Source: Sulfuritalea sp.
GTDB taxonomy: Bacteria; Pseudomonadota; Gammaproteobacteria; Burkholderiales; Rhodocyclaceae
Direction: 5' to 3'
Assembly (NCBI GenBank): GCA_030680805.1
Contig: JAUXUK010000070.1
Span: 62,001-126,000, forward strand
Length of the DNA: 64,000 bases
Shown here: positions 4,662 through 52,415 of the stretch, one piece after another
Layout: every line of letters starts with the position of its first letter
Position numbering within the stretch: position 1 is the stretch's first letter
Notes under the pieces: model-generated
What the model was told of the DNA's origin: nothing
The model's input: only the letters and a program-made list of their open reading frames with translations
The model's database searches: none
Made by a program: the position numbers and the translations under genes

Positions 4662-6590
4662 ATGCCCGTTATTTCCCTTGATCGCGCCTGTCTCGCCTAC
4701 GGCCATGTTGCCCTTCTTGATCACGCCGCCATGCAGATCGACGCTGGCGAACGTGTCGGCCTTATCGGGCGCAATGGCAGCGGCAAATCCAGCCTGCTGA
4801 AAGCTCTTGCCGGGCTCGGGTCGCTCGACGACGGCGAGGTCTGGCGCGAGCCGGGCCTCTCCATTGCCTACGTGCCACAGGAGCCTGAATTCGCTACCCA
4901 TGACACGGTCTTCGACGCCGTGGCCGCCGGGCTGGGCGAGGTGGCCCGCGTGCTCGCCGAGTACCACGAGGTCACCCATAAAGTCGGCGCTGGCGACACG
5001 GCGACCATGGACCGGATGCAGGAATTGCAGACGCAACTGGAAGCCAACGACGGCTGGCGGCTGAACTCGCGGGTCGAACAAGCCATCTCGCGGCTGGCGC
5101 TGGACGGCGACGCCCGCGTCGACGCGCTTTCCGGCGGCGGCAAGAAGCGCGTGGCCCTGGCCCGCGCCCTGGTGGCCGAGCCGGACCTGCTGCTGCTCGA
5201 CGAGCCGACCAACCATCTCGACGTCGATGGCATCCTCTGGCTGGAGGATCTGCTGCGCGGCTATCAGGGCGCGGTCATGCTGATTACCCACGACCGGGTA
5301 TTCCTGGACAATGTGGCGACGCGCATCATTGAACTGGATCGAGGCAATCTGGTGAGCTTCCCCGGGCGCTTCGCGGCCTACCAGGAGCGCAAGGAGTTCA
5401 TGCTCAACGAAGAGGCACTGGCCAATGCGCGCGCCGACAAGATGCTGGCGCAGGAAGAAGTCTGGATCAGGAAGGGCGTCGAGGCGCGGCGCACGCGCAG
5501 CGTCGGGCGCGTGCAGCGTCTTGAGCACTTGCGCGAGGCCCGCGCGGCACGACGCGAACAACTGGGCAAAGTCGATTTCCGCGTGGTACGCGGCGACGCG
5601 TCCGGCAAGCTGGTGGCCGAACTGGACGGCGTCAGCAAGCGATTTGCGACAACTGCGGGCGACAAGACCGTGGTGAAGAATTTTTCCTGCCGCATCCTGC
5701 GCGGCGACAAGGTGGGCCTGATCGGCGCCAATGGCACCGGCAAGACCACGTTGTTGCGCCTGATCCTCGGTGAGCTGGCCGCCGACGCAGGCAAGGTGCA
5801 GCTGGGCACCAAGATCGAAGTGGCCTATTTCGACCAGTTCCGCGCCCAACTCGATCCGGAAGCGCCGCTATGCGAAGTGATCAGCCCAGGCTCGGACTAT
5901 GTCGAGATCGGCGGCACGAAGAAGCATGTGATCGGCTACCTGGAGGATTTCCTGTTTGCTCCGCAGCGGGCGCGTTCGCCGGTGAAATCGCTGTCCGGCG
6001 GCGAGCGCAATCGCCTGTTGCTGGCGCGCCTGTTCGCGCGGCCGGCCAACGTGCTGGTGCTCGACGAGCCGACCAACGACCTCGACATCGAAACCCTGGA
6101 ACTGCTCGAAGCCCTGCTGCAGGACTACTCCGGCACGGTGTTCCTGGTCAGCCACGACCGGGCCTTTCTCGACAACGTGGTGACGCAGACCATTGCCAGT
6201 GAAGGCGATGGGCAGTGGAAGGAATATGTCGGCGGCTACAGCGACTGGCTGCGGCAGCGGCCGGCCGGGGGCGCCGCGCGGTTCGATGCGACGGGTGGAG
6301 TTGAGGCAAAGTCTGCGCTGAGAGTCGGCGCTGGCGATGCGGCGAAAGCCAAGCCTGCCGGGGGCAAGAAGCTCAGCTTCAAGGAACAGCGCGAGCTTGA
6401 ACAACTACCCGAACGTATTGCCGCGCTGGAAGCCGAGCAGGCAGTATTGCAAGGCCGGCTGGGCGATCCGGCCTTCTATCAAGGGCCGGCAGACGCCGTG
6501 CGTCAGTTGCAGGCCCGGTTGGCCGCGGTCGATGCCGAAATCGAAGCGGCCCTGATCCGCTGGGAGGCCCTGGAGGCGAAGGGCCAATAG
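4662..6590 (+). CDS. uup: ABC-F family ATPase Uup
   Basis: 642 residues with two ABC ATPase domains and no membrane segments, as in ABC-F proteins that act on ribosomes or branched DNA. Domain 1 has Walker A GRNGSGKSS and Walker B with LLLLDEPTNHLD; its signature reads LSGGGKKR. Domain 2 has GANGTGKTT, LSGGERNR and VLVLDEPTNDLD. The interdomain linker (about 240-320) is charged and helical. A C-terminal coiled coil (about 570-640) marks the Uup subgroup, linked to tolerance of DNA-structure stress and precise transposon excision. Two copies of the dispersed 24-bp motif lie inside the gene, coding VGAGDTAT and VGAGDAAK. Confidence 0.92.
   Translation: MPVISLDRACLAYGHVALLDHAAMQIDAGERVGLIGRNGSGKSSLLKALAGLGSLDDGEVWREPGLSIAYVPQEPEFATHDTVFDAVAAGLGEVARVLAEYHEVTHKVGAGDTATMDRMQELQTQLEANDGWRLNSRVEQAISRLALDGDARVDALSGGGKKRVALARALVAEPDLLLLDEPTNHLDVDGILWLEDLLRGYQGAVMLITHDRVFLDNVATRIIELDRGNLVSFPGRFAAYQERKEFMLNEEALANARADKMLAQEEVWIRKGVEARRTRSVGRVQRLEHLREARAARREQLGKVDFRVVRGDASGKLVAELDGVSKRFATTAGDKTVVKNFSCRILRGDKVGLIGANGTGKTTLLRLILGELAADAGKVQLGTKIEVAYFDQFRAQLDPEAPLCEVISPGSDYVEIGGTKKHVIGYLEDFLFAPQRARSPVKSLSGGERNRLLLARLFARPANVLVLDEPTNDLDIETLELLEALLQDYSGTVFLVSHDRAFLDNVVTQTIASEGDGQWKEYVGGYSDWLRQRPAGGAARFDATGGVEAKSALRVGAGDAAKAKPAGGKKLSFKEQRELEQLPERIAALEAEQAVLQGRLGDPAFYQGPADAVRQLQARLAAVDAEIEAALIRWEALEAKGQ
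4981..5004 (+). repeat. Dispersed 24-bp motif, copy 1 (inside uup)
   Basis: Reads AAGTCGGCGCTGGCG, then ACACGGCGA. Plus orientation, inside the first ABC domain of uup, encoding KVGAGDTAT. Confidence 0.8.
6323..6345 (+). repeat. Dispersed 24-bp motif, copy 2 (inside uup)
   Basis: Reads AGTCGGCGCTGGCG, then ATGCGGCGA: one base off in the tail relative to copy 1. It lies in the linker before the C-terminal coiled coil of uup and is preceded by a degenerate half copy (AAAGTCTGCGCTGA, 6308-6321). Confidence 0.7.
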
Positions 6591-6708
6591 TTTTCGCAGG
6601 CACTTGAAACGGCCTGTATTCAAGGTGTTGCTTCGGATGCGCGGGATATACGCTGTGCCCACTGGGTGCCGGGTTTCCCTTGCAGGCTGCATACGGGAGT
6701 GATGCGTT

Positions 6709-7578
6709 TTGGACGCATGGAAAAAGCGTTGGGGCGTCGGGTCATGGGCTGCGTTCTTCGAGACGCAGGAACTTCCCGTAATGTCTCGCTCCAAGATGAT
6801 GCTCAACGCCTTTCAGCAATCCAAGGGCGAAATGCTGGCGCCCATCGAGCTTTCCTCCATCGTGCTGCTTGATCCCTTGCTGTGCCTGCGCTTGCTGCGT
6901 GAGGCGGAGCGTAGCCGCACCGATCGGCTGGGGCACGAAACCACCACCGCGTTGGCGGCCATCATGCAACTGGGCATCGACGAATTCAGGGACTTGCTGC
7001 TGTCAAGCCAGGAAATCGAGGAGGCCAATACCGGCCTGCTGGAGGTCGAAGCCCGTGCGACCGTAGCCGCGCAAGTGGCGCAACGCTGGGCTCCCGGCCG
7101 CAACGATCTCAATCCCGAAGAAGTCGCCGTCGCGGCCCTGCTTATCGATGCGGGCGAGTTGCTGCTCTGGGTGTATGAGCCTGAACTGCCGCAGGCGGCC
7201 AGGGAGATGCTGCTCTCCGGCAAGGTGAAACGCAGTTCGCAAGCGCAGATGGAAGCCTGCGGATTCGATTTCAAACAGCTGACCATGCGTTGCGCCGAAC
7301 TCTGGAAGCTGCCGCCGCTGATACTTCAGCTCCTGCGTGGTCTGGATACGCCGCGCGCCAACTTGACGCGTATCTGTTCGAATGCCGCGCGCCATATCGT
7401 CGAATCGTCGCCGACCTCGAATCTTGCGCTGGCCAGCGATCTCGTCGAAGCCCGCAGGCTGATGCCGCACGTCAGCATCGAGTGGCTGGTGGCGGGAATG
7501 GTCATGCTGCCGGACGATCAACGGGCTGACTTGATAGCCTCCGCCACTGAACTCGATGTGCGTCAGCCGAATGCCTGA
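6709..7578 (+). CDS. HDOD domain protein
   Basis: 289 residues forming a single HDOD domain, the HD-related fold without catalytic residues found in bacterial signalling proteins. The N-terminal FFETQELPVMSRSKMMLNAF and the central LLIDAGELLLWVYEPEL match the family pattern. The TTG start at 6709 is chosen because the homologous N-terminal segment needs it and a GGGAG ribosome site lies 9 bases upstream; an internal ATG at 6781 would truncate the domain. It heads a run with an orphan 91-residue gene and an RNase HI-like gene. Its partner and signal are unknown. Confidence 0.82.
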   Translation: MDAWKKRWGVGSWAAFFETQELPVMSRSKMMLNAFQQSKGEMLAPIELSSIVLLDPLLCLRLLREAERSRTDRLGHETTTALAAIMQLGIDEFRDLLLSSQEIEEANTGLLEVEARATVAAQVAQRWAPGRNDLNPEEVAVAALLIDAGELLLWVYEPELPQAAREMLLSGKVKRSSQAQMEACGFDFKQLTMRCAELWKLPPLILQLLRGLDTPRANLTRICSNAARHIVESSPTSNLALASDLVEARRLMPHVSIEWLVAGMVMLPDDQRADLIASATELDVRQPNA

Positions 7579-7677
7579 GCAGCGGCCGGGTTTTTCGGCG
7601 CCGCCAACGCTCAAGCCTGCGGACATTCTGCCGATATTTTCTTCGAATGCAGCCGATATCCATCCAGGGAGACTCAC

Positions 7678-7953
7678 GTGGTCGTCATAAATGGAAAGCG
7701 TACTACCGCGATAGTGATCCGGCATCGGGGCGACAGCGTCACCCTGGTGCCGATGAAAAGCGGCCGGCTCTCGGCCAAGACGGTTGCCTTTGAAGAATTT
7801 CGCAGCGAATGGCAGGAAACCGGCTACGCGCTGTCGCAAGGGCTGACCACTTTTCTTGCGCACATCATGAAATGGGGCGCCTCGCTGGAGGTCGTCAAGG
7901 GCCTCGACAGGCTTGCGGCCCGCGACCGCTTCGTCGTAGCCAGCCTGTTCTAA
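7678..7953 (+). CDS. Small protein of unknown function (91 aa)
   Basis: Starts with GTG, preceded by GGGAG six bases upstream, and ends at TAA (7951-7953). The sequence looks like a small beta-rich N-terminus (VVINGKRTTAIVIRHRGDSV) followed by helices. It has no signal peptide, membrane segment or known motif. It lies between the HDOD gene and the RNase HI-like gene. The latter continues in the same reading frame directly after this stop codon, which raises the possibility of a read-through or formerly fused product. Confidence 0.6.
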   Translation: MVVINGKRTTAIVIRHRGDSVTLVPMKSGRLSAKTVAFEEFRSEWQETGYALSQGLTTFLAHIMKWGASLEVVKGLDRLAARDRFVVASLF

Positions 7954-7977
7954 CGCCGGCCCGCAAGGCGCAAGGCA

Positions 7978-8430: not shown

Positions 8431-8502
8431 CGTTCATGCAGTGATCCGGCACTCCTGATGATGAAACACACGAAAGGCGAATTAAAGGCCCCCCACCCCC
8501 AT

Positions 8503-8520
8503 CCCCGCCCCAGGGCGGGG
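8503..8520. terminator. GC-rich hairpin downstream of the RNase HI-like gene
   Basis: CCCCGCCC and GGGCGGGG form a perfect 8-bp stem around a 2-base spacer, in the 220-bp gap after the RNase HI-like gene. There is no T-run, so it is a weak terminator candidate or a stray palindrome. Confidence 0.3.
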
Positions 8521-9085: not shown

Positions 9086-9105
9086 GCGGTACCGCTGTCG
9101 AACAA

Positions 9106-20473: not shown

Positions 20474-22225
20474 ATGGCAGAGATCACCGGCGGCGAAATC
20501 ATCGCCCGCATGTTGCAAAAAGAGGGCGTCGAGAAGGTCTTCGGCATCATCGACGGCACCTATTTCGGCTTCTACGCGGCGCTGCATCGGCTCGGCATCG
20601 AGATCGTCACGCCGCGCCACGAAACCTGCGCGGCACACATGGCCGGCACCTATGCGCGGCTGACCGGCAAGCTCGGTGTCTGCATGGCCAGCAATGGCCC
20701 CGGCGTTGCCAACCAGCGGCCCGGCCTGGTGGACGAGCAGGCCGACGGCAACCGCGTGCTGGCGATCACCAGCGCGCGCCGGCCGACCATCATGTACCCC
20801 GACCGTGGCGGCAGCTACCAGTGCTTCGACCAGAGCGGCGTCATCGGCAAGATCGGCAAATGGAGCACGGCGGTATCAAGCTTCGACCGCGTGCCCGAGC
20901 TGGTGAGGAAGGCTTTGCGCAAGAGTTGGGAAGGGCGGCCCGGCGTGGTGCATGTCGATGTGCCCGAGACCATCATGAACGGCAAATTCAAGGCCGACGT
21001 CAGTTACTGGGCGCCGCACCAGTACCGCAACGCCGTACCGCCAGCGCCGACTTTTGATCAGGTCAAGCAGGCTGCCGATCTGTTGATCGCCGCCGACGCG
21101 CCGATGATCCATGCCGGCAGCGGCATCATCCACTGCAACGCCTATGCAGCACTGCAGCGTGTCGCCGAACTGCTGCATGCGCCGGTGACCACCAGTTGGG
21201 CCGCGCGCGGCATGCTGACCGAGAACTCGCCGCTGGCCATCACCATGCCGCACGTCAAGCTCAACCACAAGGTGCGCAACGACGCCGACGTGGTGCTGAT
21301 CCTCGGCTCGCGCATCGGAGAAACCGACTGGTGGGGCAAGCCGCCCTACTGGCGTCATCCCTCCGAGCAGAAGACCATCCAGGTCGACCTCGATGCCGAC
21401 ATGATCGGCCTCAACAAGCCGGCCGACCTGGGCGTTGTCGCCGATGCCAAACGCTTCCTCGAACTGCTGGGCGACGAACTGGAAAAGCGCAAAGGCGAAC
21501 TCAAGCTCGACGCCCGCCGCACCCGCGTCGCCGGCTACGCCAGGACCATGCAGGAAGACCGCGCCGGCTGGGACAAGGCGCTCTCCGACATGGCGATCCC
21601 GATGCATCCGGCGCACATCGGCGCGGTTTGCCGCGAGTTGTTCCCGGAAGACTCGGTGCTGGTCGCCGACGGCGGCAATGCCACGATCTGGGCCATGTTC
21701 TATCACAAGGTCACGGTGCCCAACACCGTGATATCCACCTTCAAGTTCGGCATGCTCGGCGCCGGCATGTCGCAGGCGGTGGCGGCGGCCATTGCGCGGC
21801 CGGGCAAGCCGGTTTGCTGCATCATCGGCGACGGCGCCATGGGCTTCCATTCGCAGGAAGTCGAAACGGCGGTGCGCAACAAGGCGCAGGTGATCTACAT
21901 CGTGCTCGCCGACAAGCAGTGGGGCATGGTCAAGATGAACCAGCAGTTCATGTTGCGGCCGATCAAGACCATGATCTTCAAACACCTCGATCCCGATGAG
22001 ACGATCAAGGCCGACCTGGGCGAAATCAAGTTCGACAAGCTGGGCGAGAGCATGGGCGCCTATGGCGAGCGCGTCTCTGATCCGAAGGAGTTGAAGCCTG
22101 CGCTGCAACGCGCGCTGGCGACGGGCGGCTGCGCGGTGATCCACGTCGATGTCGATCCGGTCAAGCACATGTGGGCGCCGGGCCTGATCCATTTCAAGAA
22201 GATGCACGAAGAGCCCAAGGCGTGA
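20474..22225 (+). CDS. ThDP-dependent enzyme, acetolactate-synthase-like, function unknown
   Basis: 583 residues, 21 bp after xsc with a strong GGAGGAGAAG ribosome site. It has the full three-domain ThDP architecture: an N-terminal domain with the activating Glu in RHETCAAHMAGTYARLTGK, a central domain, and a C-terminal ThDP site GDGAMGFHSQEVETAVRNKA. It is related to but clearly different from Xsc. Members decarboxylate 2-keto acids or act on acyl-CoAs. Co-location with xsc suggests action on a sulfonated or C2-C3 keto intermediate, which is inference. One dispersed 24-bp motif copy lies inside, coding AVPPAPTF. Confidence 0.8.
   Translation: MAEITGGEIIARMLQKEGVEKVFGIIDGTYFGFYAALHRLGIEIVTPRHETCAAHMAGTYARLTGKLGVCMASNGPGVANQRPGLVDEQADGNRVLAITSARRPTIMYPDRGGSYQCFDQSGVIGKIGKWSTAVSSFDRVPELVRKALRKSWEGRPGVVHVDVPETIMNGKFKADVSYWAPHQYRNAVPPAPTFDQVKQAADLLIAADAPMIHAGSGIIHCNAYAALQRVAELLHAPVTTSWAARGMLTENSPLAITMPHVKLNHKVRNDADVVLILGSRIGETDWWGKPPYWRHPSEQKTIQVDLDADMIGLNKPADLGVVADAKRFLELLGDELEKRKGELKLDARRTRVAGYARTMQEDRAGWDKALSDMAIPMHPAHIGAVCRELFPEDSVLVADGGNATIWAMFYHKVTVPNTVISTFKFGMLGAGMSQAVAAAIARPGKPVCCIIGDGAMGFHSQEVETAVRNKAQVIYIVLADKQWGMVKMNQQFMLRPIKTMIFKHLDPDETIKADLGEIKFDKLGESMGAYGERVSDPKELKPALQRALATGGCAVIHVDVDPVKHMWAPGLIHFKKMHEEPKA
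21031..21054 (-). repeat. Dispersed 24-bp motif, copy 3 (inside ThDP gene)
   Basis: Plus strand reads CGCCGTACCGCCAGCGCCGA, then CTTT; antisense relative to the host gene. Confidence 0.8.
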
Positions 22226-24346: not shown

Positions 24347-25165
24347 ATGACCCGCCGCAACCTCACCGGCAAAGTAGTCCTGATCACCGGCGCCGCCGGC
24401 GGCCTCGGCGCCGCGCTGTGCCAACGCTTTGCCGCCGCCGGCGCGCGGATCGCCGCCATGGATCTCGACGCGGCCAAGCTCGACACCCTGACAACATCAC
24501 TGCGCGCCAAAGGCGCCGAAGCGCTGGCCCTGACCGGCGACATCACCGACCCGACCGCGTGCGAGTCAGCGATAGCCGCAACGCTGGCACATTTCGGCGC
24601 CCTCGACGGCCTCATCAACAACGCCGGCATCAGCCATCGCAGCCTGCTCGCCGACACCGACTCCGACGTCATCGCCCGCGTCATGGCAGTCAACTTCTTC
24701 GGCGCCGCCAACCTCACCCAGGCCGCGCTGGCGCAAATCGTGGCGCGGCAGGGCTTCATCGTCACCATCTCCAGCGTCGCCGGCTTTTCGCCGCTGATCG
24801 GCCGCACCGGCTATGCCGCCAGCAAGCACGCGCTGCATGGCTTCTTCGACAGCCTGCGCAGCGAAGTCGAAGGCGCCGGTGTCGGCGTCACCCTGGTTTG
24901 TCCCTCGTTCATCCGCACCGGCATCGGCACGGCGGCGACCGACGGCAGCGGCGCGCCGGTCAGCAGTCCGCGCATCACCAGCGGCGTCGAATCCTCGCCC
25001 GAGGAAATCGCGGCGCAGATTTTCGATGCCGTGGCGGCAGGGCGCAGGCTGCTACTGCCCGACACCACCGCGCGCAAGGCATGGTGGCTGAGCCGGCTGG
25101 CGCCGGGGCTCTACGCCCGGATCATGAAGCAACGGATGGGCAGGGAGTTTTCGGGCCTGCTTTAG
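24347..25165 (+). CDS. SDR family oxidoreductase (classical)
   Basis: 272 residues. TGAAGGLGAALCQRF is the cofactor-binding glycine motif, NNAG is present, and the catalytic triad is Ser in TISSVAGFSPL with YAASKHAL (YxxxK). The C-terminus has a hydrophobic SRLAPGLYARIMKQR stretch common in SDRs close to lipid or steroid-type substrates. It follows REP pair C and may be a separate transcript. A role in reducing or oxidising an aldehyde or alcohol of the sulfonate route is possible but not shown. Confidence 0.82.
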   Translation: MTRRNLTGKVVLITGAAGGLGAALCQRFAAAGARIAAMDLDAAKLDTLTTSLRAKGAEALALTGDITDPTACESAIAATLAHFGALDGLINNAGISHRSLLADTDSDVIARVMAVNFFGAANLTQAALAQIVARQGFIVTISSVAGFSPLIGRTGYAASKHALHGFFDSLRSEVEGAGVGVTLVCPSFIRTGIGTAATDGSGAPVSSPRITSGVESSPEEIAAQIFDAVAAGRRLLLPDTTARKAWWLSRLAPGLYARIMKQRMGREFSGLL

Positions 25166-25184: not shown

Positions 25185-25210
25185 AAAAGTCGGCGCTGGC
25201 GGGACGGCGA
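25185..25210 (+). repeat. Dispersed 24-bp motif, copy 4 (intergenic)
   Basis: AAAAGTCGGCGCTGGCG, then GGACGGCGA; 20 bp after the SDR stop codon and before the toxin operator. Confidence 0.8.
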
Positions 25211-25261
25211 TTTGCAATCCCCTCTACTGTGTTTCTCGGAAGTGCGCGGTGCTTGCATGAA

Positions 25262-26647: not shown

Positions 26648-27035
26648 ACGGGGGCAGGTCAATCCGCAACACGCGCCGCATTCGCCTGATGTTCGCTTCA
26701 CATCACCCCTATCGCGACACCTTCCTCAGCGCCGCCCAGGCCCTCGCCCCATAGACCCCAAAAAGTGCTGACCCCGGCACGCTATAAACAACGGGGGTAG
26801 GGGGAGTTGCGCCTACTTTCCGCAAATTCACCTATGGAAAGACTCCCTGCGCCCGACAAAACAACAATTGTCTCCACCAACAGTCATTCAGCATTTAATC
26901 CGACGCGTGGTGAAATTTGCGGGCTAGAAGTATTGTCGAGTCGCCGTGCCGCCAGCGCCGACTTTTCATTGCCGCTCAACTCATCGCTCGCAGGTGTTAC
27001 CATAGTGCCACCCGCAAACCATAAGGCGCCCGATC
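26648..27035. other. 388-bp gap without a gene
   Basis: No convincing coding region on either strand. It contains dispersed motif copy 5 and, at its right end, the presumed promoter of the third toxin-antitoxin pair. Base composition is less GC-rich in 26850-26940. Confidence 0.6.
26942..26966 (-). repeat. Dispersed 24-bp motif, copy 5 (intergenic)
   Basis: Plus strand CGCCGTGCCGCCAGCGCCGA, then CTTTT, about 70 bp upstream of the ribbon-helix-helix antitoxin gene. Confidence 0.8.
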
Positions 27036-30903: not shown

Positions 30904-31674
30904 CTATCCCGCCAGTCCGTCATACACCAGCTTCGCCCCCGCCGCCAGCAGAGTCCACGCCGTGACGAGGTTGAAGCCGCGCATGTCGACGGCGTGCAGC
31001 AGGCGGTAGCCGACGAAGTAGCCAAGCGGGATCGCCGGCGCCAGCAGCAGCGAGACACCGAGGTTGGAGAGGTCGAGCAGGCCGAGCTGGGCATAGGGAC
31101 CGAGCTTGGCGAAATTCACCACCGAAAAGAAGATCACCGTGGTGCCGACCAGGCGCAGCTTGTCCATGTTCTGCGGCATCAGGTATTGCATGATCGGCGG
31201 GCCGCCGGCATGCGAGACGAAGCTGGTGAAGCCGGACAGCGTGCTCCAGAAAATGCCCGGCAAAAAAGTCGGCGCTGACGGTACGGCGGCCAGCGTGCTG
31301 CGCGCAGCGCGGAAGCGGTCGAAGGCAAACAATACGGCTTCGATGCCGATCAGCAGCTTGATCCAGCGTGCATCGACGTGGCCGAAGGTGAGCCAGCCGA
31401 GCGCGATGCCGATCATGGCGCCGGGCAGGATGATGCGCAGGTTGGCAGCGTCGCCGCGGCCGCGAAACACCACCAGGCCGATGGCGTCGATGGTCAGCAG
31501 GATCGGCAGCATCACCGCGGCGGCGAAGGGCGGTGCCACCACCAGCGCCATCAGCGGCACGCCGAGGCTGCCCGCCGCGCCGCCGAAGCCGGCCTTGGAC
31601 ATGCCGACCAGCACCGTGGCGGCGACGGCCAGCAGCCAGAAGGCGAGGGGCAGGGTGGTGGCGTGGTCGAACAC
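30904..31674 (-). CDS. TauE/SafE family sulfite/organosulfonate exporter-like permease
   Basis: 256 residues with about eight membrane helices. The N-terminal GMSKAGFGGAAGSLGVPLMA and central GFTSFVSHAGGPPIMQYLMP repeats are the TauE/SafE signature. Family members export sulfite, sulfoacetate or related anions, or other small molecules. A link to sulfite released by Xsc, encoded 11 kb away, is attractive but inferred. GTG start. One dispersed motif copy is embedded, coding AAVPSAPTF. Confidence 0.85.
   Translation of the reverse strand: MFDHATTLPLAFWLLAVAATVLVGMSKAGFGGAAGSLGVPLMALVVAPPFAAAVMLPILLTIDAIGLVVFRGRGDAANLRIILPGAMIGIALGWLTFGHVDARWIKLLIGIEAVLFAFDRFRAARSTLAAVPSAPTFLPGIFWSTLSGFTSFVSHAGGPPIMQYLMPQNMDKLRLVGTTVIFFSVVNFAKLGPYAQLGLLDLSNLGVSLLLAPAIPLGYFVGYRLLHAVDMRGFNLVTAWTLLAAGAKLVYDGLAG
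31264..31288 (+). repeat. Dispersed 24-bp motif, copy 6 (inside TauE/SafE gene)
   Basis: AAAAGTCGGCGCTGACG, then GTACGGCG; antisense to the host gene. It shares the GCTGACG variant with copy 7. Confidence 0.75.
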
Positions 31675-34533: not shown

Positions 34534-34992
34534 CTACGTCGTCGCGATCCACTGCGCCGCTTGTTCCAGCGCAGCGGCGAGATGGCCCTGCGCGGCCCCG
34601 CTGAGCGGCTCGCCCAGTTCGAAACCTTCGCCGCGTATCGCCAGCAGCCAGCAGGGGGGCGGTTCGCCGTCCTCGATGGCGGCATAGACCTTGAGCACCG
34701 CCTGCGGGCTCATGGCGTGGGTGGTGAAGCTGGCGTCGCGTGCGGCCTTGATGCGGACCAGCGAGCAGGGCGCCGGGGCGTCGAGGCTGGCATCGACGAA
34801 CAGCACGCGGCGGCGGCCCTGCAGGTCGAGCGCGTGTTCCACCTGCAACTGGAAATCGGTGAGGCATTCGACGGCGCCCCATTCGGGATGACGAGCGGCG
34901 AGTGCCGTGAAGTGTTCGACGAACAGCGGGCCGAGTGCATCGTCGCCGCGGCTGGGATTGCCCCAGCCGAAGATGAGGATTGGTGCCGTCAA
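34534..34992 (-). CDS. hoxW: Hydrogenase maturation protease HoxW
   Basis: 152 residues. It removes the C-terminal peptide of HoxH after nickel insertion. The N-terminal FGWGNPSRGDDALGP is the protease signature with nickel-sensing acidic residues; LTDFQLQVEHALDL and VLFVDASLDAP follow the HoxW pattern. Starts at a TTG that overlaps the HoxH stop (TTGA), so it is translationally coupled to its own substrate. Confidence 0.9.
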   Translation of the reverse strand: MTAPILIFGWGNPSRGDDALGPLFVEHFTALAARHPEWGAVECLTDFQLQVEHALDLQGRRRVLFVDASLDAPAPCSLVRIKAARDASFTTHAMSPQAVLKVYAAIEDGEPPPCWLLAIRGEGFELGEPLSGAAQGHLAAALEQAAQWIATT

Positions 34993-36479
34993 GAAACTTC
35001 GCGAGTCAAACCGCGATGGTCGCGCGTGGCCGCATCGATCGCCGTACCGTCAGCGCCGACTATTTCGACTTCGAGCGGCATCTGGCCCAGCGCATGGGTG
35101 GCGCAGGAAAGGCAGGGGTCGAAAGCGCGGATGGCGATCTCGATGTGGTTGAGCAGGCCCTCGGTGATCTCGACGCCGTCGAGGTATTGCTTCGCCACTT
35201 CGCGCACCGCGGTGTTCATTGCCTGGTTGTTGTGCGTGGTGGAAACGATCAGGTTGGCGCGTATCACGAGGTCGTTTTCATCGACGCGGTAGTGGTGGAT
35301 CAGCGTGCCGCGCGGCGCTTCGATGACGCCGACGCCGCGCTCCTGGCGCTGGCCGGTGGCCATCAGGTCGCGGCCGACGATGTCGTCGTCGTGCAGCAGG
35401 TCCTTGATGGTCTCGGCTGCGTGCAGCATTTCGATCATGCGCGCCCAGTGGTAGCCGAGCGTGGCGCCGGTGGCGCTGCCGCCGTCGAAGGCCATGAATT
35501 CCTCGCGCGCCTTGTCCGCCAGCGCGGTGGGAATGCTGTCGCAGTGCGTGACGCGGGTCAGCGGGCCGACGCGATAGGAGCCGTCGTCCGGGCCCAGCGA
35601 CTTGAAGAAGGGGAACTTCATGTAGGACCAGGGCTTGACGCCCTCGGCGATGACTTCCCAGTAGCGGCCGTAGTTGTAATGGTCGAACAGGGTGTTGCCG
35701 TCGGCGTCGCGCGCGCGCAGGCCGCCGTGATACAGGTCCATCGCGCCGTCGGGGCTGACCAGGCACATGCCGGCGGAGCGGAAGCGGCCGAAGGCGTTGT
35801 ATTCGGCGAGGTTCTGCTCAAACAGCTGGCGGATCATGCCGACCGCGTCGCGGCTCCAGGCCACCATCTGGTAGATGTCTTTCAGCAATTCGGCGCGTTC
35901 TTCGGCCGAGAGCGATTTGTTAACCCCGCCGGGGACCGAGCCGGTGCCATGCACCCGCTTGCCGGCCGTCATGCGGATGACTTCCTGGCCGTATTTGCGC
36001 AGGAAGACGCCCTTCCTGGCGATTTCCGGATGTGCGGCGATGACGCCGACCACGTTGCGCGCCGCGACGTCGGAGCCGAAGCCGAACAGCAGGTCGGGCG
36101 ACGCCAGGTGGAAAAAGTGCAGGGCGTGCGATTGCAGGATCTGGCCGGCGTGCATCAGGCGGCGAATCTTCTCGGCAGTGGGCGTCAGTTGCTTGACGCC
36201 GAGCATCATGTCCAGCGCCTTGGAGGCCGCGAGGTGGTGCGAGACCGGGCAGATGCCGCACAGGCGCTGCACCATGACCGGCACTTCCCAATAGGGCCGG
36301 CCCTGGATGAACTTCTCGAAGCCGCGGAATTCGACGATGTGCAGGCGCACCTGATGCACCTTGTTATTGTCGTCGAGCAGGATGGTGACTTTGCCGTGGC
36401 CCTCGACCCGGGACACCGGATCGATGGCGACGCGGCGCAGTTTTTCGGGAGCGGTGGCAGTTTCGAGTTCGAATTTCAT
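34989..36479 (-). CDS. hoxH: NAD-reducing [NiFe] hydrogenase large subunit HoxH
   Basis: 496 residues. It carries the Ni-Fe active site: RLCGICPVSHH (Cys74, Cys77) and, near the end, DPCLSCATH (Cys456, Cys459) supply the four cysteine ligands. The 34 residues after His462 form the peptide cleaved by HoxW. With HoxY it forms the hydrogenase module of the cytoplasmic group 3d bidirectional enzyme. One dispersed motif copy falls inside the coding part for the removed tail (EIVGADGTAIDA). Confidence 0.95.
   Translation of the reverse strand: MKFELETATAPEKLRRVAIDPVSRVEGHGKVTILLDDNNKVHQVRLHIVEFRGFEKFIQGRPYWEVPVMVQRLCGICPVSHHLAASKALDMMLGVKQLTPTAEKIRRLMHAGQILQSHALHFFHLASPDLLFGFGSDVAARNVVGVIAAHPEIARKGVFLRKYGQEVIRMTAGKRVHGTGSVPGGVNKSLSAEERAELLKDIYQMVAWSRDAVGMIRQLFEQNLAEYNAFGRFRSAGMCLVSPDGAMDLYHGGLRARDADGNTLFDHYNYGRYWEVIAEGVKPWSYMKFPFFKSLGPDDGSYRVGPLTRVTHCDSIPTALADKAREEFMAFDGGSATGATLGYHWARMIEMLHAAETIKDLLHDDDIVGRDLMATGQRQERGVGVIEAPRGTLIHHYRVDENDLVIRANLIVSTTHNNQAMNTAVREVAKQYLDGVEITEGLLNHIEIAIRAFDPCLSCATHALGQMPLEVEIVGADGTAIDAATRDHRGLTREVS
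35040..35063 (-). repeat. Dispersed 24-bp motif, copy 7 (inside hoxH tail)
   Basis: Plus strand CGCCGTACCGTCAGCGCCGA, then CTAT. Same sense as hoxH, in the segment encoding the peptide removed at maturation. Confidence 0.75.
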
Positions 36480-36497
36480 GTCGGTCTCGGTGGTAAC

Positions 36498-37067
36498 TTA
36501 GTCGTAATGCATCAGGCCGTGGCCCAGGCTGGGCGTGCGCCCGGCCAGCAGGTCGGTCAGCAGTTTCCAGATCGCATCGGCGGGCGGCGGGCAGCCGGGC
36601 AGGAAGTAATCCACCTTCACCACTTCATGGATCGGGTGCACCTTGTTCAGCGGCAGCGGCAGTTCCGGATCGTTGGGTATGCCGCCGTGGCTAACGAGGT
36701 ATTCGGTCGCGTACACCTCTTCGAGGATGTCGCGCAGGTCGAGGTGGTTGCGCTGCGCCGGCAGGCCGCCGTTGATCGCGCAGGCACCCACCGCCACCAG
36801 CACCTTGCAGTTCCGGCGGAACTCGCGCAACACGTGCACGTTTTCGGCGTTGCACAGGCCGCCTTCGATCAGCCCCAGATCGCAGGGGCCGCAGGTCTTG
36901 ATGTCGGTCAGGGGCGAGCGGTCGAACTCGACCAGTTCGAGCAGCTTCAGGATGCGCTCGTCGATGTCGAGGATGGACATGTGGCAGCCGAAGCAGCCGG
37001 CGAGGCTGGTGGTGGCGACGCGCAGCTTCTTTACCGGGGCCGGAGTTACATTCGTCGGGGCGTTCAT
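36498..37067 (-). CDS. hoxY: NAD-reducing hydrogenase small subunit HoxY
   Basis: 189 residues. Carries the proximal [4Fe-4S] cluster: LAGCFGCHMSILD, CGPCDLGLIEGG, VGACAINGGLP and FLPGCPPPADAIW hold the conserved cysteines. Lacks a Tat signal and distal clusters, as expected for the soluble group 3d enzyme. The start overlaps the HoxU stop (ATGA); hoxH follows after 18 bp. Confidence 0.95.
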   Translation of the reverse strand: MNAPTNVTPAPVKKLRVATTSLAGCFGCHMSILDIDERILKLLELVEFDRSPLTDIKTCGPCDLGLIEGGLCNAENVHVLREFRRNCKVLVAVGACAINGGLPAQRNHLDLRDILEEVYATEYLVSHGGIPNDPELPLPLNKVHPIHEVVKVDYFLPGCPPPADAIWKLLTDLLAGRTPSLGHGLMHYD

Positions 37068-37777
37068 GGCGTGGTTTCCTTGTCCGGTGCGCTGATCGGC
37101 GCCAGATCGTAGGTGCGTTCGCCGATCGGCACGGCGAAGCCGCGACGCTTCCTGAGGATGACGCCGACCGGGCAGATGCTGGCGGCGCGGTCGGTGGCGG
37201 CAAAGTCGGTATCCCCGAGCAAGCCGGATTCGCTGCTGATATGCACGCGGCGGCCGAGAATGCCACGCCCGCCCATGTAGAAGACGTTCTTGCCGTCGAC
37301 GTCGCGCGAGGCGGAAACGCACAGCGAGCACATGATGCAGCGGTTGAAGTCGAGCAGGATGTCGGGGTGCGAGGCATCGACCGCGCGGTCGGGGTAGAAC
37401 ATGTCGAAGTGAGGCGACATCATCTTCAGTTCGTAGGCCGTGGCCTGCAGGGTGCAGTCACCGCTCTTCTCGCAGGAGGGACAAAAATGGTTGCCTTCGA
37501 CGAAAAGCATCTGCAGCAGCGTGCGGCGCTTGTCGTCGAGTTCGGCGGTGCGGTTTTCGACTTCCATCCCCGCTTGTGCCTCGATGGTGCAGCTTGAGCC
37601 GAAGCGGCCATTGACCTTCACCGTGCACAGTTTGCAGGAGCCGTTGGCCTGGAAGTCGGGATGCCAGCACAGGTGCGGAATGTAGGCGCCACTGGCTTTC
37701 GCCGCCTGGATGATGGTCTGCCCCGGCGTGAAGGGAATCTCTTCGCCGTCGAGGCGGAAGGTATTGGTTGCGTTCAT
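37064..37777 (-). CDS. hoxU: Hydrogenase diaphorase subunit HoxU
   Basis: 237 residues. An N-terminal [2Fe-2S] ferredoxin domain (HLCWHPDFQANGSCKLCTVKV) is followed by a His/Cys [4Fe-4S] site (HFCPSCEKSGDCTLQ) and a further cluster site (CIMCSLCVSASRDVDGK). Homologous to the N-terminal part of complex I NuoG; it wires electrons between HoxY and HoxF. It overlaps hoxF and hoxY by 4 bp on each side. Confidence 0.94.
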   Translation of the reverse strand: MNATNTFRLDGEEIPFTPGQTIIQAAKASGAYIPHLCWHPDFQANGSCKLCTVKVNGRFGSSCTIEAQAGMEVENRTAELDDKRRTLLQMLFVEGNHFCPSCEKSGDCTLQATAYELKMMSPHFDMFYPDRAVDASHPDILLDFNRCIMCSLCVSASRDVDGKNVFYMGGRGILGRRVHISSESGLLGDTDFAATDRAASICPVGVILRKRRGFAVPIGERTYDLAPISAPDKETTP

Positions 37778-39585
37778 GCTTCGGCCTCGTTTTCCGGGTG
37801 CTCGTCGAAGTGTGCGGCGGCGTCGTCGCGGCCGGTCATTTGTCGCGCCTGCGACAGGGCTGCGTCGAGATCGAAGGCCGGTTCGTAGTTGAGCGACATG
37901 AGCCGGCGTTCGTAGGCGGGACGGAACTTGTTGAGCGTGTCGAACATCGGGTTGCAGGCGCTGTTGCCCAGCCCGCAATGGCTGGCGCCCTGCATCAGGC
38001 GGTGCAGCTTGAACAGTTCGTTGATGTCGTAGGGCGAGCCGTGATTGCGCGCGATCTTGTCCATGAGGTTGCGCACCAGCGTCGTGCCGACCCGGCAGGG
38101 GGTGCAGAAGCCGCAGGACTCGTGGGCGAAAAAGTGGGCGAAGTTGCGCGCCACCTCGAACATGTCGCGGGTTTCGTCGAAGACCATGAAGGCACCGGCG
38201 GTGGGCAGGTCCTCGAAGGCGATTTTGCGGTCGAACTCGGCCTCCGCCAGACAGATGCCGGAAGGGCCGGAAATCTGCACGGCAAGGGTATCCGTTGCGC
38301 CGCAGTCCTCCAGAACCTGCCGTACCGTCACGCCGTAGGGATATTCGTAAATGCCCGGCCGCTCGCAGTCACCACTGACGGACAGGATCTTGCTGCCGCT
38401 GGATTTCTCGGTGCCGTGCTTCAAGTACCAGACAGCGCCGTGGGTGGCGATCAGGCAGGCGGCGGCCAGTGTTTCGACGTTGTTTACCGTGGTCGGCTGG
38501 TCGAGGTAGCCGCGGGTGACGGGGAAGGGCGGACGGATGCGTGGCCGGCCCGGCTTGCCTTCCAGCGATTCGATCAGGGCCGATTCCTCGCCGCAGATAT
38601 AGGCGCCGGCGCCAAGATGAATCTCGATGTCGAAGTCGAACTCGGTGCCGAGAATCTTTTTGCCCAGCAGCCCGGCTTGTCGCCGTGCCGCCAGCGCCGA
38701 CTCCAGCGGTTCCAGCAGGTAGCGGTACTCGCCGCGCAGGTAGATCAGGCCTTTTGCAGCGCCGACCACCAGGCCGGCGATGCTCATGCCTTCGAACACC
38801 AGGTCCGTGTAGGAGGTCAGCAGCACGCGGTCCTTGAAAGTTCCCGGCTCGCCTTCGTCGGCATTGCAGACGACATAGTGGGCGGGGTTGTCGCCGCTGC
38901 CGGCGGCATTGCGGCAGGCTTCCCATTTCTGCCCGGTGGAAAAGCCCGCGCCGCCGCGACCGCGCAGCTTTGCGTCCTTGACCTCGGCCAGCGTGTTTTC
39001 CGCGCCGCGCTTCAGCGCCGCGCTCAGCGCCTGTCCGGACGCCAGGCCGTGATCGAGCAGGATGTCACGGCGCCGGATGTTGTCATCCACCGCAAACCAT
39101 TCGGCCGGCCAGTCGGCCACCGGAGTTTCGCTGCGGATCAGGCCGACCATTTCGCCGACGCGGGACTGCGTCATGCGGGTGATCGCCCGATAATTGACCA
39201 GCACGGCAGGGCCCTGATCGCACATGCCGGTGCAGGACGTGGTGTTCACGCTGACCAAGCCGTCCTCGGAAACGCGGCCGGGTTCAAGCCAGAGCTTCTT
39301 GCACATGGCATCCATCAGGTCGGCATTGCCCAGCATGCGGTCGGTGATGTTGTCCGACCAGAGCACGCAATACTTGCCGCGCGGCCGTTTGTGGAAAAAG
39401 CTGTAGAAGGAGGCGGTGCCGCCGACCTTGGCGCGCGGCCAGCCGATGCCTTTGGCGATGGCGGTCAGGGTCGCCGGGGAGAGCCAGCCAAGCTGCTCCT
39501 GTGTCTCGCGCAGTATCTGCATCAGGCGCGTGCCATCGCGGTGGTGACGGTCGAGAACAGCGTCGATCAAACGGGTATCTGACAT
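37774..39585 (-). CDS. hoxF: Hydrogenase diaphorase subunit HoxF (NAD- and FMN-binding)
   Basis: 603 residues from the ATG at 39585, which has a GAGG ribosome site; an in-frame ATG 33 bp upstream is less likely. The N-terminal NuoE-like domain (LMQILRETQEQLGWLSPATL; SCTGMCDQGPAVLV) is fused to a NuoF-like domain: GRGGAGFSTGQKWE (NAD/FMN), NADEGEPGTFKDR, GAYICGEESALIES and ESCGFCTPCRVGT for the [4Fe-4S] cluster. This subunit reduces NAD with electrons from hydrogen, or the reverse. First gene of hoxFUYHW; no hoxI is present. One dispersed motif copy is inside, coding ESALAARRQ. Confidence 0.95.
   Translation of the reverse strand: MSDTRLIDAVLDRHHRDGTRLMQILRETQEQLGWLSPATLTAIAKGIGWPRAKVGGTASFYSFFHKRPRGKYCVLWSDNITDRMLGNADLMDAMCKKLWLEPGRVSEDGLVSVNTTSCTGMCDQGPAVLVNYRAITRMTQSRVGEMVGLIRSETPVADWPAEWFAVDDNIRRRDILLDHGLASGQALSAALKRGAENTLAEVKDAKLRGRGGAGFSTGQKWEACRNAAGSGDNPAHYVVCNADEGEPGTFKDRVLLTSYTDLVFEGMSIAGLVVGAAKGLIYLRGEYRYLLEPLESALAARRQAGLLGKKILGTEFDFDIEIHLGAGAYICGEESALIESLEGKPGRPRIRPPFPVTRGYLDQPTTVNNVETLAAACLIATHGAVWYLKHGTEKSSGSKILSVSGDCERPGIYEYPYGVTVRQVLEDCGATDTLAVQISGPSGICLAEAEFDRKIAFEDLPTAGAFMVFDETRDMFEVARNFAHFFAHESCGFCTPCRVGTTLVRNLMDKIARNHGSPYDINELFKLHRLMQGASHCGLGNSACNPMFDTLNKFRPAYERRLMSLNYEPAFDLDAALSQARQMTGRDDAAAHFDEHPENEAEA
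38681..38702 (-). repeat. Dispersed 24-bp motif, copy 8 (inside hoxF)
   Basis: Plus strand CGCCGTGCCGCCAGCGCCGA, then CT; same sense as hoxF. Confidence 0.75.
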
Positions 39586-39639
39586 GGCAAGAACCTCAAA
39601 AAGAGATGCTTCGCGCATCGCTACTGCACTGCAGCATAT

Positions 39640-42837: not shown

Positions 42838-43476
42838 ATGGCCGTACCGGATCACCTTGTTCTTGCCACGCGCGACCTCGATGTCGGCACTGCGTGGCTC
42901 GAACAGCGGCTGGGCATCGCGCTTGCCGAAGGCGGCCGGCACCACCGCATGGGCACCCGCAATCGCCTGCTGCATCTGGGCGAGAACTTCTACCTCGAAC
43001 TGATCGCCATCGACCCGCAGGCACCGCCACCGGGAAGGCCGCGCTGGTTCGGGCTGGATTCGCCCGACGCGTTGCCGGCGGATCGTCCGCGCCTGATCCA
43101 TTGGGTCGCTCGCAGCGATGACATCGGGCACGAAGCCGCCGCGAGTGCGGAAGCGCTGGGCGACATCCTGCCCATGGAGCGCGGCGACTATCGCTGGTGC
43201 ATCACGGTGCCGCCCGACGGTCACCTGCCGGGAAACGGTTTGGTGCCGACCCTGATTCAATGGGATGTCCCGTTTCATCCGGCGGCACGCCTGCCGGATG
43301 CCGGCTGCCGGCTGATGAAACTGGAAGGTTTCCATCCGCAGCCGGCGCGCATCAAGCTCGCGCTGGCGAGCCTCGGTCTGGGAACGCGGCTCGACGTCCA
43401 CGCGTGCGCGGTCGATGAGGCGGTACAACTGGTTGCCTACGTTCGTGCGCCAGGCGGCCTGATCGAGCTCGACTGA
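42838..43476 (+). CDS. Glyoxalase-like (VOC) domain protein
   Basis: 212 residues starting MAVPDHLVLATRDLDVGTAW, the opening strand of the glyoxalase-like VOC fold (PF13468 type). The metal-site His near the start (PDHLVLA) and EGGRHHRMGTRN are present. Function within this broad family cannot be set. Starts 3 bp after nikR, so it belongs to the same operon. Confidence 0.8.
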   Translation: MAVPDHLVLATRDLDVGTAWLEQRLGIALAEGGRHHRMGTRNRLLHLGENFYLELIAIDPQAPPPGRPRWFGLDSPDALPADRPRLIHWVARSDDIGHEAAASAEALGDILPMERGDYRWCITVPPDGHLPGNGLVPTLIQWDVPFHPAARLPDAGCRLMKLEGFHPQPARIKLALASLGLGTRLDVHACAVDEAVQLVAYVRAPGGLIELD

Positions 43477-43485
43477 CCTGCCAGG

Positions 43486-43509
43486 AAGTCGGCGCTGGCG
43501 ACACGGCGA
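43486..43509 (+). repeat. Dispersed 24-bp motif, copy 9 (intergenic)
   Basis: AAGTCGGCGCTGGCG, then ACACGGCGA, identical to copy 1. It fills the 42-bp gap between the convergent glyoxalase-like and TonB receptor genes. Confidence 0.85.
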
Positions 43510-43518
43510 TCAAGGCCT

Positions 43519-50142: not shown

Positions 50143-50188
50143 ACTGTTACGCTTCTTCTGACATGCGCAGCGACAGGGAGATGCGATC

Positions 50189-50464
50189 ATGACCAACAGG
50201 ATTCACGTAGCGGCATCCGAAGTGCGGATCAACGACCACATCTACAACGGCACCGGGACCAACGCCCATCCCACCTTCGCCTGGGAAACCGTCACCGAAG
50301 TGCGCCAGGAGGACGGCCTGATTCTGCTGATCACCGGCAACGCCAAGGGACCGCACGGCGAGTTCTGGCTCGAACCGGAGGAGCAGATCGAGGTGATGCG
50401 CTATCCCGAAGCGGTGGTCCCGGCCAGCGCGCCGGCGAAGGCCAAGCCGAAACACGGGCATTGA
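50189..50464 (+). CDS. Small hypothetical protein (91 aa)
   Basis: An acidic-to-neutral protein starting MTNRIHVAASEVRINDHIYN with a basic Lys/Pro/Ala tail (PAKAKPKHGH). It has a GGGAG ribosome site. No family recognised. First of four small same-strand genes after the SNF2 helicase, spaced by 5-50 bp. Confidence 0.6.
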   Translation: MTNRIHVAASEVRINDHIYNGTGTNAHPTFAWETVTEVRQEDGLILLITGNAKGPHGEFWLEPEEQIEVMRYPEAVVPASAPAKAKPKHGH

Positions 50465-50470
50465 TCCAGC

Positions 50471-50704
50471 ATGAAAGCCCAGCCGAACAATCCACTGCAC
50501 GGCATTACCCTGGAAGCGATCCTGGGTGAGCTGGTGACTCGCCATGGCTGGGAGGGCCTCGGGCGGGAGATCGACATACGCTGCTTCACGCACGAGCCGA
50601 GCATCGCCTCCAGCCTCAAGTTCCTGCGCCGCACGCCCTGGGCACGGGAGCGGGTGGAGGCGCTGTATGTGTCCACCTTGCGGCGACAACAGGAAACGGC
50701 TTGA
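50471..50704 (+). CDS. VF530 family DNA-binding-type protein (DUF2132)
   Basis: 77 residues. [34 protein letters not shown] and [17 protein letters not shown] are the VF530/DUF2132 signature, a small helical fold thought to bind DNA. It nearly touches its neighbours (6 bp gaps), so the small-gene run is a real operon. Role unknown. Confidence 0.88.
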
Positions 50705-50710
50705 TTCGAC

Positions 50711-50908
50711 ATGACCTACGAAGAGCATCTCGACGAAGTGACCACCCTCATCACCGAAAAATACGGTACCAGCGACGAGGTCGCGATCGGGATGGTGATG
50801 CGCGCCCAGGCCGACGATTTCTTCAGCGGACATGATGACGATCCGACGATCTGCACCCTGGAACGCGCCGGTCGGGACGCGAAAGCGGTGTTCAAGAAGT
50901 ACAAATAG
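50711..50908 (+). CDS. Small hypothetical protein (65 aa)
   Basis: 65 residues, acidic, mostly helical (MTYEEHLDEVTTLITEKYGT; DDFFSGHDDDPTICTLERAG). No motif recognised. Lies 6 bp after the VF530 gene and 50 bp before the basic-tailed gene. Confidence 0.6.
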   Translation: MTYEEHLDEVTTLITEKYGTSDEVAIGMVMRAQADDFFSGHDDDPTICTLERAGRDAKAVFKKYK

Positions 50909-50958
50909 GCATTGTGCGAGGCGCCGCTTGCGCAGGATCTCAACGTGATCGGAAAACC

Positions 50959-51381
50959 ATGACCGCCCGACCCAAGGCCGCACCCAAGGCCGCGACAAAA
51001 TCTTCGCCAAAAGCCGTGCCGAAAGCCGAACCCAAGGCCAAAGCCAGGCCCGTGGAACCTTTTCTGCGCTTCTACCATTCAGACGAGTTGCGGGCAAAGA
51101 CGCTTGCCGTGCTCGGGGCGCTCGAGGAGGATTCCGATCCTGAAAACCATCGCGACACCCTGGCGGATCTGGTGGCAGAGCTTACCGAGAGTGGCATGAG
51201 CTACTACTACTTGAGGGCGCTGAAGCTTGCCAAGGCAGGTTTCGTGGTCGAACAGTCGGCGCGTCTTGGCATGTCCGGCGCGGTAAAGCTGATTACTTCC
51301 GTCACCCGCAAATTCATTGTGCGCATGGATTCAGCGCAGTTGCTGGTCGTCTCCCGCCACATTCGCGCGCTCGCCATTTAG
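50959..51381 (+). CDS. Protein with histone-H1-like basic N-terminal tail
   Basis: 140 residues from the ATG at 50959. The first 35 residues are a Lys/Ala/Pro-rich tract with repeated PKA/PKAA steps, resembling bacterial histone-H1-like or AlgP-type tails that bind DNA. The rest (PFLRFYHSDELRAKTLAVLG onward) is a compact helical domain with no recognised family. Together with VF530 and the SNF2 protein it suggests a chromosome-associated cluster, by inference. Confidence 0.7.
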   Translation: MTARPKAAPKAATKSSPKAVPKAEPKAKARPVEPFLRFYHSDELRAKTLAVLGALEEDSDPENHRDTLADLVAELTESGMSYYYLRALKLAKAGFVVEQSARLGMSGAVKLITSVTRKFIVRMDSAQLLVVSRHIRALAI

Positions 51382-51439
51382 CGTCGCCGGCCCTTCCAGG
51401 CGCCATTCGGGCCAACAGGCCGCCCGGTCGCCGCGCATT

Positions 51440-51478
51440 GATGTTATAAAGTAACTAATTAGGTTACACTTGAACATC
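51440..51478. promoter_or_regulatory. Nested inverted repeat upstream of chrBA
   Basis: Inner arms GTAAC/GTTAC (51451-51467, 7-bp spacer) inside outer arms GATGTT/AACATC, ending 22 bp before the chrB ATG in an AT-rich stretch. Likely operator of the chromate operon. Confidence 0.5.
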
Positions 51479-51500
51479 AATAGTGCGAATTGAGTCGCCC

Positions 51501-52415
51501 ATGGAATTCCTTGCCCTGTTTGTCAGCCTGCCGACGCGGCAATCCGCCGGTCGCATGCGTGTCTGGCGCGCGCTGCGCGCGCTGGGCTGCGCCACCTTGC
51601 GCGACGGGGTGTATCTGCTGCCGGATTCGGCCGAACATGCGGCAGTACTCGCGCCGATCGCGGAGGAGGTGCGTGCCGTGCAGGGCACCGCCGATCTGTA
51701 CCGTCTCGGTGGCTGTGATGAAGTGCAGCAGGCCGAACTCGTTGCGCTCTTCGATCGCGGCCCGGATTACGCCCGGTTGCTGGAATCGATCCGTGCCGCG
51801 CTGGCGGCCGCCAATCCGAGGACAGCCCATGCCCTGCGCCGCGAGTTCAAGGCCATCGTCGCCATCGACTATTTCCCCGGTGAAGCTCAAAAACAAGCCG
51901 CTGCCGCGCTGGCCGAACTGGCTGCCGTGGCCGGCGGCGAGCCCCGCGCAGTGGATGAAAGAATTCGCCGTGTCGCCAGCGCCGACTTTTTGGGGCGAAC
52001 CTGGGCGACGCGCAAGAACCTCTGGGTCGATCGCATGGCATCGGCCTGGCTGATTCGCCGCTTCATCGACAGAAAGGCGAAGTTTCTCTGGCTCGACAAT
52101 CCGAAGAAATGCCCGAAAACGGCGCTCGGCTTCGACTTCGACGGCGCCGCTTTCACCCATGTCGGCAGCCGCGTCACCTTCGAAGTGCTGGCGGCCAGCT
52201 TCGGCCTGGACAGCGACCCGGCGCTGACCCGCATTGCCGCCATCGTGCATTTCCTCGATGTCGGCGGCGTGCCGGTAGCCGAAGCGGCAGGCATTGAGGC
52301 GGTGCTGGCCGGCGCCCGCGCCGCCGCGCCGGACGACGACAAATTGCTGACCGAGGCGAGTCGCGTCCTCGACAACCTTTACAAGAACTACCAGCAGGAG
52401 ATTCCGCATGAGTAA
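51501..52415 (+). CDS. chrB: Chromate resistance regulator ChrB
   Basis: 304 residues from the ATG at 51501 (a GTG 18 bp upstream is possible). N-terminal MEFLALFVSLPTRQSAGRMR to LRDGVYLLPDSAEH and C-terminal KNLWVDRMASAWLIRRFIDR to FDGAAFTHVGSRVTFEVL match ChrB. ChrB senses chromate and controls the chrA efflux gene. It overlaps chrA by 8 bp. One dispersed motif copy lies inside, coding RRVASADFLG. Confidence 0.9.
   Translation: MEFLALFVSLPTRQSAGRMRVWRALRALGCATLRDGVYLLPDSAEHAAVLAPIAEEVRAVQGTADLYRLGGCDEVQQAELVALFDRGPDYARLLESIRAALAAANPRTAHALRREFKAIVAIDYFPGEAQKQAAAALAELAAVAGGEPRAVDERIRRVASADFLGRTWATRKNLWVDRMASAWLIRRFIDRKAKFLWLDNPKKCPKTALGFDFDGAAFTHVGSRVTFEVLAASFGLDSDPALTRIAAIVHFLDVGGVPVAEAAGIEAVLAGARAAAPDDDKLLTEASRVLDNLYKNYQQEIPHE
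51966..51990 (-). repeat. Dispersed 24-bp motif, copy 10 (inside chrB)
   Basis: Plus strand CGCCGTGTCGCCAGCGCCGA, then CTTTT; antisense to chrB. Confidence 0.8.

Follow-up and report, generated by a model that had tools for sequence, protein, structure and literature searches.

What kind of element would recur, almost letter for letter, within genes as well as between them and equally often on both strands of a bacterial chromosome? The question is raised by a 64,000-nucleotide stretch of Sulfuritalea sp. (family Rhodocyclaceae; assembly GCA_030680805.1, contig JAUXUK010000070.1, positions 62,001 to 126,000 of the forward strand), hereafter the window, in which a motif of about 27 bp is found ten times. 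We consider the motif to be probably (at a rough probability of 0.6) a self-recognition word of the Rhodocyclaceae that resembles the uptake sequences of competent bacteria and is spread by biased recombination. The word is near-exact, dispersed in both orientations, gained by substitution, kept in place, given up by one congener, and re-spelled across a whole clade, as uptake sequences are, and for this reason it probably biases uptake; such a word suggests both a reader and a drive copying it between genomes.

The genome of the window (3.14 Mb in 107 contigs) contained 207 exact cores, 102 on one strand and 105 on the other, while the reversed pattern used as a control gave none and base composition predicts 0.002 copies per genome. 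The first-pass annotation, which had proposed a genome-wide count as a check, expected hundreds of copies per genome, which this excess bears out, at a density of about one per 6 kb, which does not hold genome-wide: exact copies are on average 15.2 kb apart in the genome and 6.4 kb apart in the window, whose density is therefore not typical. The conserved part spans about 27 bp with the consensus (A/G)AAAGTCGGCGCTGGCGNNACGGCGAT; it begins with four A/G bases, ends in AT, and includes two free positions. In the flanks of 31 copies, position −1 was A in all 31, position +21 was A in 21, and position +22 was T in 16; this profile is the unbiased one, because the contig loci used in another flank alignment had been preselected for AA before and AT after the core. 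An Rfam search returned one tRNA only.

In the window itself, scanning with the pattern GTCGGCGCTGRCGNNRCGGCG gave ten exact matches, five per strand, at the places first reported for them, and the only further match at up to three mismatches was at 36060 (three mismatches), in line with the 0.68 matches expected by chance (100 shuffles, maximum 3). Gene calls, here and at all other loci, came from a simple home-made caller script, which reproduced the original split of seven copies in genes and three in gaps (25189, 26942, and 43488). The copies, all with an exact core, are as follows:

Copy 1, 4979 to 5005, forward strand: in a Uup-like ABC-F ATPase gene (4662-6590, forward), in the frame VGAGDTA.
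Copy 2, 6320 to 6346, forward strand: toward the C-terminal end of the same Uup-like gene (4662-6590).
Copy 3, 21029 to 21055, reverse strand: antisense within a forward gene (20474-22225).
Copy 4, 25185 to 25211, forward strand: intergenic, after the gene at 24347-25165.
Copy 5, 26940 to 26966, reverse strand: intergenic.
Copy 6, 31264 to 31290, forward strand: antisense within a reverse gene (30904-31674).
Copy 7, 35038 to 35064, reverse strand: close to the 3′ end of a [NiFe]-hydrogenase-like large-subunit gene (34989-36479, reverse).
Copy 8, 38679 to 38705, reverse strand: in a NuoE/NuoF-like gene (37774-39618, reverse), in the frame ESALAARR.
Copy 9, 43484 to 43510, forward strand: intergenic, about 10 bases past the stop of the gene at 42838-43476.
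Copy 10, 51964 to 51990, reverse strand: antisense within a forward gene (51501-52415).

The hydrogenase-like large subunit and the NuoE/NuoF-like fusion gene lie together at 34989-39618, each with one motif copy.

Copies were counted in one genome per species, many of these genomes being incomplete. Within the genus, 30 of the 31 genomes hold 27 to 348 exact copies and the remaining one, G017 (99% complete), holds a single copy, while a first sample of 30 genomes from other genera yielded one copy in 6 and none in 24. When 249 genomes of the family were scanned at up to three mismatches (reversed control at most two per genome), rich genera emerged beyond that of the window, with 602 copies in G061 (genus g32), 656 in G091 (g62), 81 to 510 in seven of the eight g43 genomes (none in the eighth, G293), 189 to 451 in all four g70 genomes, and 208 to 358 in all seven g88 genomes. 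At the level of the order, 26 of 399 genomes matched at up to one mismatch; outside the family, these were 21 of 384, with no more than 14 copies each. Most carriers among the at least 110 stretches listed were Rhodocyclaceae, chiefly Sulfuritalea sp.; a small number had other names, such as Rubrivivax and Burkholderiaceae. On a tree of a single gene, Uup, from which G293 was omitted as a paralogue was its sole match, the motif-rich genera fall into two separate clades, which implies either an old word that was lost many times or one that spread or originated repeatedly. Two sister genomes on this tree, G022 and G025 (100/94), have 30 and 53 exact copies, and no new dialect appeared in the G025 sample; the signal is possibly decaying in both.

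The spelling of the word varies by lineage. De novo word counts placed AGTCGGCGCTGGCG at the top in G000, the 11-mer AGTCGGCGCTG in G002, and AGTTGGCGCTGGCG in G027 and G001. The last of these carries GTT in place of GTC, and the full GTT word (AGTTGGCGCTGGCG..RCGGCG) occurs exactly 205, 221, and 246 times in the genomes G001, G016, and G027, and 0 to 3 times in the other 28 genomes of the genus. The Uup tree places these three genomes in a single clade (97/90); 27, 37, and 32 GTC copies are left in them, an old-dialect share of 11.5–14.3%, so that GTC has become GTT in 86–89% of their approximately 230–280 exact copies. The same base was switched in place at the orthologous NuoE/F-like and Uup sites: copy 2 is in the GTT dialect in all three genomes and copy 1 has GTT plus one further change, and the orthologues of copy 1 in g62 (G091) and g88 (G165) have the exact core. 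Spellings in other genera include AAAAGTCGACGCTGG in G098, a final A (ACGGCA) in g43, GGTG for GGCG in G199, and, as parts of the word, GAAAGTCAGCC in G166 and AAAGTCAGTCC in G125; all of these spellings share an AGT preceded by an A-rich run. A related word was not at the top of the de novo counts in G124, G064, G120, G106, G076, G025, G016, G017, G099, and G199, a weak negative because 20–140 kb per genome was sampled and genome-wide counts reach 221 in G016 (GTT), 53 in G025, 189 in G099, and 228 in G199. In the motif-poor congener G017 (loci L301-L306 and L146), CTCTGTGTCTC-type repeats were among the most over-represented words.

Copies are also kept at orthologous places. The conservation of non-coding copies, which had been named as a check, was found for both copies tested, those at 43488 and 25189, with diverging spacers. 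The neighbourhood of copy 9 carries the exact core in G007 and a core with one substitution in each of G002 and G011, the spacers being different in each; G028 retains only its first part, and the copy is absent in 11 of the 15 genomes compared. For copy 4, the sole fetched genome covering the site, G002, has a copy with one substitution at the corresponding position. In the complete chromosome G002, the first 1.36 Mb of the contig contains 65 copies on the forward and 61 on the reverse strand (p 0.79), and the copies are spread uniformly (Kolmogorov–Smirnov, KS, p 0.39) with a spacing slightly more even than random (coefficient of variation, CV, 0.89; KS p 0.046 versus exponential). No strand skew of the KOPS or Chi type was seen in this segment, a result that relies on balance within every quarter of it and not on a located replication origin. 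The segregation signal suggested by the first-pass annotation is unsupported because the motif shows no skew, is spread uniformly, and is carried by phages.

The even spread, the near-invariance of such a long site, and its orthologous conservation in genes and gaps would suit another of the early proposals, a binding site for a chromosome-organising or nucleoid protein that is kept by selection at each site. A single changed base in the great majority of the copies of one clade is, however, hard to obtain under site-by-site selection, and such a protein would sit poorly with the presence of the motif in phages and in stretches from other families and with the existence of a congener, G017, all but devoid of it. 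We consider a nucleoid-protein site unlikely, although it keeps some weight for its account of spread and place.

Phages also carry the motif. In a viral collection, at least 120 stretches carry the exact core, with AA before the core in 116 of 131 copies and the chromosomal final AT in few, and eight proteins on two viral contigs match phage families (tail fibre J, minor tail, primase, methyltransferase, single-strand-binding, and others). The motif often encodes a KVGAG(D/E)TAVQ tail near phage gene ends, and in L202 (9297) it overlaps a methyltransferase-like frame. Named phages gave no motif match, and the 17 records of named plasmids at E 0.2–0.6 were taken as chance. In motif-poor genera, 17 proteins encoded near motif copies were chosen by hand and tested for family membership: seven were defence-, helicase-, or phage-like (Eco57I-type, two ResIII-type, SIR2-like, GmrSD, a helicase, and a DUF3987 primase-like protein), three were efflux-like (two AcrB and one HlyD), four had other functions (CobN, glycerol-phosphate-oxidase-like, a sulfate transporter, and a CheR/PAS kinase), and the other three matched no family.

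Four stretches from other families, L441, L442, L443, and L445 (from G627, G607, G627, and G304, respectively), carry the motif every ~0.4–4 kb with all copies of a stretch co-directional, which differs from the chromosomes of motif-rich genera; in L447 and L448 the directions are mixed. Integron attC or cassette arrays were considered because some stretches are co-directional and rejected because no shared surrounding site, and in particular no conserved palindromic one, was seen by eye in the flanks of these island copies. In L441 (G627), the motif copies are accompanied by another dispersed repeat, which is tgtaggagccagcttgctggcga-like. The locus L407 of G199 contains, from 15036, a CRISPR-like array with 38 copies of a ~36-nt repeat at 66-nt spacing.

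Phage carriage, the proximity to restriction-type, SIR2-like, and GmrSD-type genes, and the co-directional copies in the four stretches from other families could be read as the traces of a Chi-like recombination or nuclease-control signal, or of a self mark that is read by defence systems and copied by phages and islands. The heart of the motif, GCTGG, resembles the RecBCD Chi site of E. coli, which is likewise a dispersed word. Chi and KOPS sites are strand-skewed, whereas the motif shows no skew in 1.36 Mb of G002; at 27 bp it is also far longer than known Chi sites, and its dialects changed in place. We therefore give a signal of this type only a small chance.

The way in which copies arise bears on a further proposal, that of a tiny mobile element inserting in frame. 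Copies are gained by substitution, not insertion. Among 128 orthologue pairs in which the partner lacks the motif (pairs lacking a match on both flanks were left out), many of them from the NuoE/F-like locus, the length difference was 0 in 103 and −27 in none. At the 30 independent sites with a motif-less orthologue, the modal length difference was 0 in 13, and a −27 class occurred at one site, beside a +48 class. For copy 8, whose orthologues have GTC, GTT, or no motif, 82 motif-less pairs showed no length change, four were at +3, and one was at −30. The numbers of mismatches in motif-less orthologues are graded, from 3 to 10. A miniature element would explain a length of nine codons, the sharp edges of the motif, the single −27 class, and the −30 pair at another site; the idea was rejected because motif-less orthologues most often keep their length and the constant-size gap that was sought is absent, and it is refuted outright where the orthologues align without gaps. 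The dialect switch in place and the lack of shared flanks around island copies also speak against it, and we regard it as very improbable.

The placement of copies was assessed after dropping duplicate sites and sites less than 300 bp from locus ends, some loci having been preselected for AA before and AT after the core. Within the genus, 96 of 210 sites were intergenic, although 88% of the sequence was called coding and 12% non-coding; in other genera these were 11 of 45 sites, with 90% called coding. Of 92 intergenic copies, 13 lay in divergent (promoter) gaps, which are thus not preferred. The genic sites of the genus use four of the six frames (37, 16, 28, and 30 sites), with two sites in the remaining frames. 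A protein-level repeat or a composition effect, for which the recurrence of the frame VGAGDTA in phage and host genes might be invoked, is negligible in the face of four frames, both strands, the intergenic share, and the composition-based expectation. REP- and ERIC-type dispersed repeats also reach hundreds of copies per genome; the motif differs from them in not being an inverted repeat, in lying within genes for more than half of the genus copies, and in its origin by substitution.

The uptake-sequence reading has its closest parallels in two known systems. Among tested competent bacteria, a strong word preference is reported for species of two families, the Pasteurellaceae and Neisseriaceae (PMC7811141, 2020). 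The DNA uptake sequences (DUS) of the Neisseriaceae resemble the motif in their genome-wide excess, their presence in genes and in permissive gaps, and their dialects congruent with phylogeny, and the old-dialect share in the GTT clade resembles the 7–12% of foreign-dialect DUS (Frye et al. 2013, PMC3630211). DUS are 10–12 bp long with 943–5918 copies (PMC3630211), compared with ~27 bp and ~30–660 copies for the motif, and further contrasts are the near absence of terminator pairs, a ComP that was not found, the phage copies, and the different family. With the uptake signal sequences (USS) of the Pasteurellaceae, the motif shares a core plus AT-rich flank, an origin by point mutation, by which USS evolve, and lineage variants; the USS core has 9 bp and 1,465–2,206 occurrences in H. 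influenzae (PMC7811141). As far as its sequence can show, the motif works like DUS and USS. To the USS core it bears no evident sequence relation. We do not class it as a DUS because DUS are defined by their effect on uptake, and the motif is known here from sequence alone. No description of a Rhodocyclaceae uptake word, or of its core, was found in open-licence PubMed Central papers when all terms were required together.

In the mechanism that we envisage, the 27-bp word on free DNA would be bound by a protein that is probably part of the DNA-uptake (type IV pilus) machinery and would favour uptake of this DNA, and recombination of the imported DNA into the chromosome would spread and restore copies. 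The word would thereby accumulate on either strand, between genes and in those reading frames of genes that tolerate it; it would decay where the system is lost, as may be the case in G017, and a change of the reader would let the copies drift to a new dialect. Of the functions first suggested, DNA uptake is the best supported, by the dialects, both strands, genes plus gaps, and gain by substitution, though it is not proven. A more specific proposal is possible but tentative: the motif may be a third independent family of self-DNA words (~27 bp, with several dialects, in seven or more genera of the Rhodocyclaceae) that marks phages and defence loci as well. Its reader would be either a putative receptor other than ComP, which may act without ComEA, or a system of defence or recombination in place of the uptake machinery.

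The search for genes of an uptake apparatus gave mixed results. All 70 genomes examined for ComEC have it, and all 18 examined for GspH-type minor pilins have these, both findings being compatible with uptake and not telling; ComEC is present in E. coli too. DprA exceeded the cut-off in 31 of 34 genomes (a fragment in G125). Among 88 clustered pilin-like frames, no group tracking the motif was seen, and pilin operons were found. Most of the weaker ComEA matches lay in frames of ~800 residues, presumably Tex.

Several points weigh against an uptake function. DprA gave no match in the motif-rich G005 (99% complete) and G001 (83% complete). With the one model used, ComEA was over the cut-off in just 3 of 37 genomes (G071, G064, and G117), of which only G117 is motif-rich, and it did not pass in G002 and G132, which are both complete and rich in the motif. 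The motif-poor G017 and the motif-less G293 keep ComEC and DprA, and G017 also its GspH pilins; therefore, no tested competence gene tracks the motif, and the loss of these genes is unsupported as the cause of motif loss in G017. Gene-content support for uptake is weak and constitutes the main weakness of the proposal. In addition, the modal length difference departs from zero, by widely varying amounts, at 17 of the 30 independent sites, and compared with published DUS and USS the motif has several times fewer copies and roughly double the length. Inverted terminator pairs, reported to be frequent in the Neisseriaceae, are nearly absent: a check of 255 sites for partners no more than 150 bp away gave 10 partner halves, of which two were in opposite orientation. 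Finally, the motif occurs in phages and beside defence genes, while foreign genes in Neisseria are said not to be associated with DUS (PMC4212676).

If the uptake-sequence reading is true, the Rhodocyclaceae would provide a third case of an uptake word, this time from environmental bacteria, in which the word is long, its dialects are sharply bounded, and one congener has lost it. Such a case would permit tests of how words originate, spread, and switch, and of their role as a species barrier. Because stray copies often adjoin defence, efflux, or phage-like genes, the motif could also serve as a label for tracing DNA that has left the Rhodocyclaceae.

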